From Vallitaleaceae bacterium (GTDB taxonomy: Bacteria; Bacillota; Clostridia; Lachnospirales; Vallitaleaceae): 64,000 nt of DNA. The stretch's first letter is position 1; each line of letters begins with the position of its first letter. The notes beneath the pieces were generated by a model. The model worked only from the letters and a program-made list of their open reading frames with translations. It was not told where the DNA came from and searched no databases. Positions 58,082-62,297 of this stretch are shown here, piece by piece. Location of the stretch: NCBI GenBank assembly GCA_028277605.1, contig JANQFZ010000072.1, positions 1-64,000 on the forward strand, read 5' to 3'. Made by a program: the position numbers and the translations under genes.

Positions 58082-58114
58082 TAAAAAAAGACTGCTGACA
58101 AATGCCAACAGTCT
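58082..58114 (-). terminator. Terminator of the sugar ABC operon
   Basis: On the minus strand TGTTGGCA-type arm AGACTGTTGGCA (58103-58114) pairs with TGTCAGCAGTCT (58089-58100, one mismatch), followed by TTTTTTTAT. It is about 10 bases after the stop of the MalG-like gene. Confidence 0.85.
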
Positions 58115-58124
58115 ATCATAAATG

Positions 58125-59870
58125 TTATTCCTTAACACTTCCCAGTGTTAATCCTGAAACAAGGTATTTAGATAAACATATGAATACGATTATTACTGGT
58201 ATACTGGTAATCAAAGCAGCAGCGGAATATACCCCCCATTTGGTTTGAAACTCTCCTTGAAGAGTAACCAATCCAACAGGTAATGTAATCACACTCTTAG
58301 AGTTTACAATAATTTTTGCTACAACATATTCTGACCACGCAGTCATAAAAGCAAATAATGTAGCTATTGCTAAGGCTGGTTTTGCTAGAGGTATAATAAT
58401 TTTTATAAAAGTATACATTGGAGAACAGCCATCCACATAAGCACTCTCTTCTAAGGAACGCGGAATGGTATCAAAGTATCCTTTTAAGAGCCACACTGCA
58501 AAAGGTACTGCTGAGGCCACATAAGGGATTAATAACCCTAACAATTGGTCTGTTAATTGAAGCTTGCTAATCAGAATATAAGTGGGTAGTAAAAGCATTG
58601 GAGCAGGGAACATCTGAGTTATAAGAAAGATCATCATGCCTGGTTTTCTACCCGTAAATTTAAATCGAGAGAAAGCATACCCAGCTGAGGCTGAAAATAT
58701 AACACCTAACACAGACGTTATCAGAGCAACAATCAAACTATTCTTTAACCATATACCTAAATCAATATCAAAAATTGCTTCCCTGAAATTATCCCATGTA
58801 GCGTCTAATGGTATAATCCTTAAATCTGTAGCAAATAGGTTATTACCTGGTCTTAGAGATATTGAAAATACATTTAATAATGGATAAAAAGCAATTAAGC
58901 ACATTACCAATAGAATAATATAAGTAATAATAATTTTTGTGAAAGAATCTCCTCTTTCAAAATGATTATCTTTCCATAATTTTAATTGATGTTTCTTCTT
59001 ATATGAAGTGTTATTATTAATTGTATGACCGATAAATGCTAATAAAATTATCAATCCTATGGTTAATATTAAAGTTATTAAATAATTTAATCTAGAGTGT
59101 TGTATAACTTTTTTTATCCAATCCTCAAAATTAGTAACCTTCATACTACTTTGCTCACAATTTCTTTCACTTATCAAAGACAGAACTGTGTTTTCCCTTT
59201 TAATTAAAGATTTATATCCTTTAATTCCTGAAGCGTTTTGTTCAACTTCAACAATTTCACTCTCTAATTCTTTTCTTTGATTCTTAAGCTGTTTAACTTC
59301 CTCTTCATTAGCATTCTTGATTTGATTATCTAATGCTGTAAGCTCTTCTCTTTTGGATGTCATGTCAACTTTTGCATTAACATAAGTGTGTAGAGCATTA
59401 AAAGCATACTTCTCCAGGATAAGTACTTGGTCAATATCTTCATTAATTCTATGTGCAAACTCTGCTTCACTTACCCTTGCCAAATAATCTTTTAATACAT
59501 TGAGATATTCTATTTCATTTTCAAGTGCAATAATATTTTTCTTAGTTCCCTTCTCTTGACCTGATTCATATTTGTATAGTTGTTCTTTGTCTTGTTTTAT
59601 TTGTTGATCTATCGTTGATAAATCATATTGTTGATAAACTTCATATGTTCCCATGAGCTGCTTGCTCTTTTTCCTTAAGGTATCTTGCATCTCTAAAGCA
59701 AAATTGTATGTTTTTTCAGTATTGATTTGACCCGTTAGTATATAAGCTAGAGGTACATTAGTACCTGTATATTGTATTGAGGGACGTACAAATGTACCAA
59801 TAATCAGTCCAACAATAACTCCTAAAACAATTAAGCCCTTTGATATTTTAAAAGATTGTTTTTCAGCCAT
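58125..59870 (-). CDS. MalG-type sugar ABC permease with large N-terminal coiled-coil extension
   Basis: The C-terminal half (about residues 308-581) is an ordinary MalG-like permease with six helices and the EAA loop EESAYVDGCSPMYTFIKIII (474-493), which docks the ATPase. Before it lie a membrane helix (11-30), about 230 mostly helical, Lys/Glu/Gln-rich residues with coiled-coil character (50-235), and a second helix (262-281). The middle part should face outside. Typical MalG is about 280 residues, so the protein is doubled. It starts one base after the MalF-like stop, using GAGGAGGTACGTTAA. Confidence 0.92.
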   Translation of the reverse strand: MAEKQSFKISKGLIVLGVIVGLIIGTFVRPSIQYTGTNVPLAYILTGQINTEKTYNFALEMQDTLRKKSKQLMGTYEVYQQYDLSTIDQQIKQDKEQLYKYESGQEKGTKKNIIALENEIEYLNVLKDYLARVSEAEFAHRINEDIDQVLILEKYAFNALHTYVNAKVDMTSKREELTALDNQIKNANEEEVKQLKNQRKELESEIVEVEQNASGIKGYKSLIKRENTVLSLISERNCEQSSMKVTNFEDWIKKVIQHSRLNYLITLILTIGLIILLAFIGHTINNNTSYKKKHQLKLWKDNHFERGDSFTKIIITYIILLVMCLIAFYPLLNVFSISLRPGNNLFATDLRIIPLDATWDNFREAIFDIDLGIWLKNSLIVALITSVLGVIFSASAGYAFSRFKFTGRKPGMMIFLITQMFPAPMLLLPTYILISKLQLTDQLLGLLIPYVASAVPFAVWLLKGYFDTIPRSLEESAYVDGCSPMYTFIKIIIPLAKPALAIATLFAFMTAWSEYVVAKIIVNSKSVITLPVGLVTLQGEFQTKWGVYSAAALITSIPVIIVFICLSKYLVSGLTLGSVKE

Positions 59871-60824
59871 TTAACGTACCTCCTCTGTACCTTTAGTGTG
59901 TTTCATAAACGCAATTCCAAAGATAAGGAGTATCGCAAAAATTGCAACGGAATAAGCTGATGCATACCCATACCTATAGAAAGAAAATCCTTGTCGATAC
60001 ACTTCCGTTACTAATATTTGAGATTTCTCATTAGCAAAGCTACCAGCAATAATAAGAATGACGTTAAGCATATTAAAGGTCCATACGGTTCCAAGTACAA
60101 CAGCAGGAGCTAATACAGGCTTTAACAACGGTAATGTAATGGCTTTGAATTTCTGCCATGATGTTGCACCATCTATATCTGCAGCTTCATAGAATGATTT
60201 ATCAATAGATTGTAGACCACCTAAGCAAATCATCATCATAAATGGTACTCCTAACCATATATTGGTTAGTATTGATCCTACAAAAGTCCATACTGGATCC
60301 ATTAACCAAGGAATTGGGTATTTATCAATAATACCTGCATATAATAACTCTTTGCCTATACCACTAACATTTAAAATAATATTAATCAATCCATATTGAA
60401 GATTTAACATACCCCTCCAAGTCAGCGCTGAAATGTATTGGGGTATTGCCCAGGGAATAATCAAGAATATTCTTAATATTGAACGACCTGGGAGCTTTCT
60501 ATTTAAAAGGACAGCTAAAAATAATCCCCCTGAAACATGAACTGTTACGTTAACAGCTGTCCATATAATCGTTCTTAAAAAAGTTGTGAAAAATTTTGAA
60601 TCCTTAAATAAGTTTGAAAAATTGCTTAATCCAATGTAATTAGGGTCTTTAAATGATTCTAAACTCATATCTGTTAATGACAACCAAAATCCATAACCTA
60701 GTGGGTAAAATACCATGATAGCCATGACAATGAAAGCTGGCAAAAGGTAATAATATGGGGTTGCTTTCCCTATAGCAAGATTTCTCGATTTTGGCGCCTT
60801 TATTTTTTTAGCTTTAGCACCCAT
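59871..60824 (-). CDS. MalF-type sugar ABC permease
   Basis: This 317-residue permease has six helices and the EAA loop YEAADIDGATSWQKFKAITL-PLL. It begins PYYYLLPAFIVMAIMVFYPLGYG and forms the heterodimeric channel with the MalG-like protein encoded immediately downstream. It is in an operon behind the binding protein (gap about 110 bases). No ATPase gene is present, so a shared MsmX/MalK-type ATPase encoded elsewhere is expected. Confidence 0.93.
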   Translation of the reverse strand: MGAKAKKIKAPKSRNLAIGKATPYYYLLPAFIVMAIMVFYPLGYGFWLSLTDMSLESFKDPNYIGLSNFSNLFKDSKFFTTFLRTIIWTAVNVTVHVSGGLFLAVLLNRKLPGRSILRIFLIIPWAIPQYISALTWRGMLNLQYGLINIILNVSGIGKELLYAGIIDKYPIPWLMDPVWTFVGSILTNIWLGVPFMMMICLGGLQSIDKSFYEAADIDGATSWQKFKAITLPLLKPVLAPAVVLGTVWTFNMLNVILIIAGSFANEKSQILVTEVYRQGFSFYRYGYASAYSVAIFAILLIFGIAFMKHTKGTEEVR

Positions 60825-60935: not shown

Positions 60936-62297
60936 CTATTCGTAGCTATTTGAACGGATCTTTGATATGTTATCGATTGCAGTTTCCTGCATATCAGCAG
61001 CTGCCTGCTCTGGATCCTTACCTTCATATAATACAGCCTCTAACTCAGGTCGTATTGCATCCCAAATACCTCTCATTTCTGGAACGATAGGCATTGGCTT
61101 TGTATAAATTAAAGTTTCTTGTTCTGCAACTTGTAATGGATCACTAGTTATTATATCTAATTCTCTTGATTCTAAATTAGTAGGTGCTTGTGAATTTGCT
61201 AAGGCAAATTTAGCATCATTTTCAGGATCTCCTACAAAGAAATCTAAGAAAGCTCTTATCGCTTCTACTCTGGCTTGATCATTTAAGTCAACTTCTTTAG
61301 AAATACTGTATCCTTTTGTAGCATTATAGAAAGTAACACGTTCTCCATTAGGTAAGGTTGGCATAGGAGCAACACCTAAATTTACGCCTGCATCAATATA
61401 AGACGTCCATGACCAAGCACCATTAAAAATCATAGCAGCAGTTTCTTCTAAGAATGCTGAATCAGCTGCACCGTAATCCATACCTTCAATACCTAAACCA
61501 TTTTCTTCTCTAATATCTCTAACAAATTGCAGAGCTTTTATCATTGGCTCAGTATTAAGTGTTGGATTGTATTCACTATCTAATACATCTCCACCAAATC
61601 CATTAAAGAAACCAATAAACCAGTATGGTTCTCTTTCATTGTATAATAAACCATATAATCCATTATCTGCATCTCTATTCTCTGAAGCTACCTCTACCAA
61701 TTCATCCCATGTTTGAGGTGCTGTATCTACCATATCTTTGTTATATAATAATGTAATATTATTTCCAAAAATATCTGGTACAGCATAATATTTACCACTT
61801 ACTTTAGTAAAATCTAATGCTGATTCATCAATTTTACTAATAAAATCTTGTGTTACAACGTCTGTAATAGGTATGATAACATCGGCTGTAATAAATGGTC
61901 CAACATTATCTCCAGGTCCATAAACAATATCTGGTCCTCCGCCTGCTACTGACGAATTCAAAAAGTTAGTTCTTAGTTCTTCAGTTTCATAATGCGTTCT
62001 CTCAATATCAATATTTGGATAAGCTGCTTCAAATTCTACTTCAACTTCATCAAAAGCTTCTTGTAGTGCTGGTTCCATTTGTTCCCAAACAACAAGTGTT
62101 ACTTTTTCATTTGACTGCTTGTCCGCATCTTGATCTTGATCTTTATCTGTGTCCTTGTCTGCATTATCTGTATCAGCATTATTACTTGTATCATTCGTTG
62201 CTGGTGTGTCATCCTTTGCTGATTTATTACTACCGCAACCTGCAAATAATGAAACAGATAACATCAAAACTAATATGACACCAAACATTTTTTTCAT
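60936..62297 (-). CDS. Sugar ABC transporter substrate-binding lipoprotein (MalE-like)
   Basis: This 453-residue family 1 binding protein has a lipoprotein signal peptide with lipobox LFAGC (Cys21), then an unusual low-complexity linker rich in Asp, Asn and Lys (about residues 25-66), then the binding fold (VTLVVWEQMEPALQEAFDE, AGGGPDIVYGPGDN, YAVPDIFGNNITLLYNKDM, AAMIFNGAWSW). Maltose or maltodextrin is the closest family resemblance, but the ligand is not certain. It is the first gene of the operon, with AAGGGGGATTTAATCC before the ATG. Confidence 0.92.
   Translation of the reverse strand: MKKMFGVILVLMLSVSLFAGCGSNKSAKDDTPATNDTSNNADTDNADKDTDKDQDQDADKQSNEKVTLVVWEQMEPALQEAFDEVEVEFEAAYPNIDIERTHYETEELRTNFLNSSVAGGGPDIVYGPGDNVGPFITADVIIPITDVVTQDFISKIDESALDFTKVSGKYYAVPDIFGNNITLLYNKDMVDTAPQTWDELVEVASENRDADNGLYGLLYNEREPYWFIGFFNGFGGDVLDSEYNPTLNTEPMIKALQFVRDIREENGLGIEGMDYGAADSAFLEETAAMIFNGAWSWTSYIDAGVNLGVAPMPTLPNGERVTFYNATKGYSISKEVDLNDQARVEAIRAFLDFFVGDPENDAKFALANSQAPTNLESRELDIITSDPLQVAEQETLIYTKPMPIVPEMRGIWDAIRPELEAVLYEGKDPEQAAADMQETAIDNISKIRSNSYE

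Follow-up and report, generated by a model that had tools for sequence, protein, structure and literature searches.

A MalG-like sugar permease with an added N-terminal arm predicted to form a membrane-anchored helical ectodomain

CUT1 importers are a model for how sugars are handed over from binding proteins to a channel, and MalF-P2 of Escherichia coli is a well-studied extra docking element. Enlarged MalG proteins with a large N-terminal ectodomain, MalG1 and MalG2 of the Thermotogales, were described in 2008 (PMC2246101). Here we analyze a malEFG operon in the window, the whole stretch of 64,000 nucleotides under study, in which the MalG-like product carries 300 additional N-terminal residues (the arm). 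A sequence-only reading of this DNA had called residues 1–300 foreign to MalG; this holds for the sequence of the arm but not for its architecture, which has a published precedent in the Thermotogales (PMC2246101). A large MalG N-terminal ectodomain is already known, and it is the sequence of the window arm that is without detected relatives. The locus is organized as follows, in the direction of transcription.

60936–62297, minus strand: malE, a lipoprotein sugar-binding protein with a 44-residue Asp-rich linker (SBP_bac_1, E 2.4e-33)
59871–60824, minus strand: malF, 317 residues, a plain CUT1 permease without a domain of MalF-P2 size (62% identity to the L096 and L099 MalFs)
59876–59885, minus strand: Shine-Dalgarno (SD) region for the long malG start, lying in the 3' end of malF (the closest operons show an equivalent SD-stop-ATG junction)
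58125–59870, minus strand: malG-like gene, 581 residues, added N-terminal arm plus CUT1 permease (single open reading frame; Pfam BPD_transp_1 at residues 388–571)
58971–59870, minus strand: added N-terminal arm, residues 1–300, a helical ectodomain between two transmembrane (TM) helices (no close MalG has it; no relatives found)
59790–59846, minus strand: first TM helix, residues 9–27 (hydropathy 2.23)
59091–59780, minus strand: extracytoplasmic helical region, residues 31–260 (AlphaFold2 model; side assigned from topology)
59028–59084, minus strand: second TM helix, residues 263–281 (hydropathy 2.68)
58125–58970, minus strand: permease core, residues 301–581, a complete MalG (56–63% identity to the closest plain MalGs over 275–280 residues)
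58089–58114, minus strand: terminator-like hairpin just after malG, the end of the operon (11 bp stem and a T run)

The three genes form one apparent operon on the minus strand. The range first assigned to the permease, 58125–60824, covers malG but runs on into malF (59871–60824); malG itself ends at 59870. No amylase-like gene or partner gene was found beside or within the operon in the window; maltodextrin is a putative substrate, suggested by the amylase-like genes that lie beside some relatives. The window MalF exceeds its closest orthologues by about 12 residues, with an apparent insertion in an external loop at about residues 153–168.

Open reading frame analysis gives one uninterrupted frame of 581 codons at 58125–59870 (minus strand). 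Its long start is an ATG directly after the malF stop, with GAGGAGGTAC upstream and a strong SD motif, AGGAGG, spaced ahead of it. Codon usage in the N-terminal part is above the median of 134 genes from the same genome and better in the real frame than in either shifted frame. The arm comprises 300 stop-free codons at 29% GC which, together with the genome-typical codon usage and the AGGAGG before the ATG, excludes a chance frame. The view that the permease truly starts internally, with the upstream part a separate gene or an artefact, draws on the homology of the core, which begins at residue 301, and on the upstream in-frame start codons at residues 243 and 273. However, in-frame start codons within residues 230–335 occur only at 232, 243, 273, 321, and 323, and none has an SD match longer than 3 nt. 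From residue 274 to residue 320 the frame has no ATG, GTG, or TTG, which leaves no internal start from which a MalG of normal length could be made, nor any in-frame start where plain MalGs begin (about residue 301). The strong SD sits before the long start, and nothing is encoded between malF and malG in the closest operons. Both alternatives that the sequence-only reading had set against the fusion fail on these points: an internal start near residue 300 lacks a suitable start codon, and a separate gene joined by a lost stop, or read-through of a neighboring gene, has no counterpart in the closest operons, where malF and malG adjoin. We regard a separate or artefactual upstream part as very improbable.

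From residue 301 onward, the protein can be aligned with plain MalGs over their full length, and it retains the conserved EESAYVDG...P segment in the EAA-loop region. The Pfam family of CUT1 inner-membrane permeases (BPD_transp_1, PF00528) matches only residues 388–571, with 65.1 bits against a gathering score of 26.4, and the best NCBIfam match, the MalG equivalog NF008231, scores 168.8 bits, under its curated cut-off of 261 bits. Judged from these matches, the product is a MalG-like CUT1 permease and, by the NF008231 rule, not an E. coli-type MalG. Residues 1–300 contain no Pfam domain above cut-offs and no NCBIfam family.

Between the two TM helices of the arm lie about 235 residues that are predicted to be all-helical. 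Five long helices (51–81, 84–102, 110–132, 135–186, and 189–237) span residues 51–237 in an AlphaFold2 model built from a 24-sequence alignment in which no other row covers the arm, which makes the arm effectively a single-sequence prediction. The full model has a mean pLDDT of 76.9 with a confident core; within the arm, block means reach 79–94 at residues 81–130 and 75–95 at 161–210, and confidence is low next to the membrane, at 21–51 and 225–259. The N-terminal part modeled alone scores 56. The arm contains amphipathic helices, and heptad-like stretches at about 151–213 accompany the long predicted helix pair 135–186/189–237. The loop between the second TM helix and the core is rich in lysine and arginine (seven in residues 282–312), as expected for a location inside the cell. 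Two added TM helices keep the N-in orientation of the core and place the ectodomain outside, where we infer it to be located. The result is a MalG with eight TM helices, the two added ones preceding an unchanged six-TM permease, and these features bear out the earlier description of a helical ectodomain, TM-anchored and joined in frame to a complete permease.

The closest malEFG operons belong to other families and encode plain MalGs of 283–290 residues directly after malF. The closest MalG cores, 56–63% identical, come from other families of the class and phylum, and those in L096, L099, L100, and L097 (283–286 residues, without the arm) have the same malEFG order and cores 60–63% identical to that of the window; their MalE and MalF are best matches too. 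To L096 and L099, malEFG is orthologous as a set (MalE 52–54%, MalF 62%, MalG core 61–63%). Within the host's family itself, MalG cores are at most 38% identical, and among the 54 MalG matches listed there only four lie in open frames of more than 330 residues: the window gene, two others of its genome, and one in G017. Because the closest MalGs are found in other families and MalF and MalE agree for the nearest operons, the sequence comparison would fit an operon gained by transfer. In L099 and L100, the malG ATG comes straight after the malF stop and leads into MSKKLSSHFERNDS or MRKKIASHFERNDS; the window shares this junction and then runs through about 300 additional residues that end in KLWKDNHFERGDS. 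By this comparison, the arm was added cleanly and in frame, between the malG start codon and the old N-terminus. Only short, chance-like repeats were seen when mobile-element signatures were sought. In one set of relatives (L106, L108, L109, L110, and L111), the MalFs (344–394 residues) carry an extra N-terminal hydrophobic stretch, and the binding proteins have no lipobox by script.

The sequence-only reading had proposed a search for other MalGs with this N-terminal part, and none was found in the collections searched. Protein searches with the arm across 59 relatives, 392 genomes of the order, and 391 of the class returned only the arm itself and weak, local hits to proteins of other kinds, among them release factor 1, a V-type ATPase subunit, and UvrC, and no homologue was found in its own genome. 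With the full-length protein against 398 phylum and 391 class genomes, no other MalG among the high-scoring matches aligned through the arm. Nothing came from viral contigs, plasmids, phages, or PDB sequences, and peptide-pattern scans of genome contigs found no arm relative, weak evidence given that the full-length query also gave none. A Pfam SOAR match (E 1.6e-4) falls short of the curated cut-off and was judged to reflect coiled-coil composition. A Foldseek search with the low-confidence model of the arm alone returned only BAR and coiled-coil matches of a generic kind, none of them under E 0.001. The VIA-align structure match list covers the core only.

The 44 residues between the lipobox cysteine and the first strand of the window MalE had been singled out as an unusually long, Asp-rich linker. 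The description is apt beside the lipoprotein MalEs of the closest orthologues, whose linkers are 9–22 residues, but the window linker ties with that of the L081 binding protein, whose MalG is plain. Other binding proteins of the same genome have linkers of 9 to 44 residues by script, most of them 27–44, with or without an extended MalG. The protein beside an 829-residue MalG scored 38 (first strand misplaced in the alignment) and measures about 52 by eye; the two binding proteins paired with extended MalGs are thus among those with the longest linkers, although n = 2 and this is no correlation. Long linkers appear mainly to be a habit of this genome, which leaves the suggested matching adaptation to the arm weak.

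The sequence-only reading had put forward three roles for the arm, holding the lipoprotein, reaching through the wall, or sensing the substrate; all three are conjectural, and what the arm may do can be framed as follows. A malEFG operon with its closest relatives outside the host family would have received about 290–300 codons in frame after the malG start, either in this genome's lineage or in that of its donor. The resulting ectodomain would stand beside the MalE docking face, where it may hold or orient the binding lipoprotein or a cell-surface partner and stand in for the MalF-P2 domain that the window MalF lacks. In simulations of the E. coli complex, MalF-P2 moves around MalE (PMC8134467). 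By analogy with MalF-P2, and given the short window MalF, the simplest proposal is an external arm by which the binding lipoprotein is held or positioned; it is speculative, with a chance somewhat short of even. In its favor are the 317-residue MalF without a large periplasmic insertion, the large MalG ectodomains of the Thermotogales and of a second operon in the same genome, and a single frame with a strong SD, an intact core, and an ectodomain predicted to be all-helical. Against it, the searches found no homologue of the arm whose conservation, or co-variation with MalE, would point to selection or function; the arm part of the model is in effect a single-sequence prediction, of low confidence at 21–51 and 225–259; and many CUT1 importers, among them most of this genome's and all close relatives found, have no such arm. 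The more specific claim, that a plain MalG gained a new all-helical ectodomain as a built-in lipoprotein docking arm replacing MalF-P2, is in our view doubtful. As for a fold shared with MalF-P2, the arm is predicted all-helical, and its low-confidence model gave no significant structural match.

With one arm sequence known, the main rival is a recent, near-neutral insertion without a role in transport, tolerated by the permease since two TM helices keep its topology. The arm occurs in one genome only, lacks relatives, is missing from all close orthologues, and leaves the core intact, all as such an insertion would. An intact frame of 300 codons with genome-typical usage, amphipathic helices, and partly confident predicted helices argue the other way, and we consider neutrality conceivable, if somewhat unlikely. 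The heptad-like stretches and the long helix pair could instead belong to a wall spacer or a clustering or anchoring device that locates the importer by self-association or by binding the cell wall or a surface amylase, which we judge improbable: no wall-binding domain was recognized and the operon has no partner gene. A helical region between two TM helices is a layout common to many sensor domains, and the arm might resemble a helical-bundle sensor that couples an outside signal to transport rate, but no sensor family matched in Pfam or NCBIfam and Foldseek gave only insignificant generic helical matches, so we give this reading little credence. Returning to a docking arm that replaces MalF-P2: if true, MalG ectodomains would have arisen more than once, by convergence. 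If they arose separately in different lineages, they are natural tests of the role of an arm, and the before-and-after comparison is unusually clean here since the close orthologues are entirely without one.

Among structurally known importers, E. coli MalG in MalFGK2-MalE (2r6g, 3puy) shares the core fold (2r6g_G: Z 25.2, rmsd 2.4 over 267 residues, 34% identity) but has no N-terminal ectodomain, the enlarged loop there being MalF-P2. SugB of the mycobacterial LpqY-SugABC (8hps_B) likewise has the same core fold (Z 26.0, rmsd 2.3 over 262 residues, 29% identity) and works with a lipoprotein binding protein, as in the window, but lacks an added arm, as do most CUT1 importers of the window's own genome and all close relatives found.

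Two permeases resemble the window protein in joining a MalG core to an enlarged, helix-rich N-terminal ectodomain: the 829-residue MalG of the same genome (L039:6804-9293, minus strand, contig C37) and the 984-residue MalG of G017 (L041:1671-4625, minus strand). They differ in the size of the ectodomain (about 500–650 residues) and in a MalF partner of 440–452 residues. The arm of the 829-residue protein is not detectably related to that of the window (BLASTP E 2.2), and derivation from it was rejected. Both begin with lipobox-like sequences (ISGC and LTGC, respectively), so these giant MalGs may be lipid-anchored at the N-terminus before the ectodomain. A 379-residue MalG (L040:13306-14445, plus strand, contig C45) retains just the final portion of an ectodomain of the giant type, with no adjoining malF or malE, and is probably the remnant of a giant-MalG operon; it adjoins a 561-residue protein of repeated SHAEG-type motif (L040:14593-16278, plus strand).

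The closest described counterparts are the malEFG MalGs TM1202 and TM1836 of Thermotoga maritima, in which a large hydrophilic region separates the first TM helix from the permease (PMC2246101), a feature that the window protein shares, at about 235 residues. Compared by description only, the Thermotogales MalG1/MalG2 ectodomain is larger (about 500 residues, in proteins of about 825), and these MalGs are reported with an enlarged-loop MalF (PMC2246101), whereas the window MalF has no such loop. As far as sequence can tell, the window protein is of Thermotogales-type layout, shorter, and encoded inside an operon whose relatives are plain.
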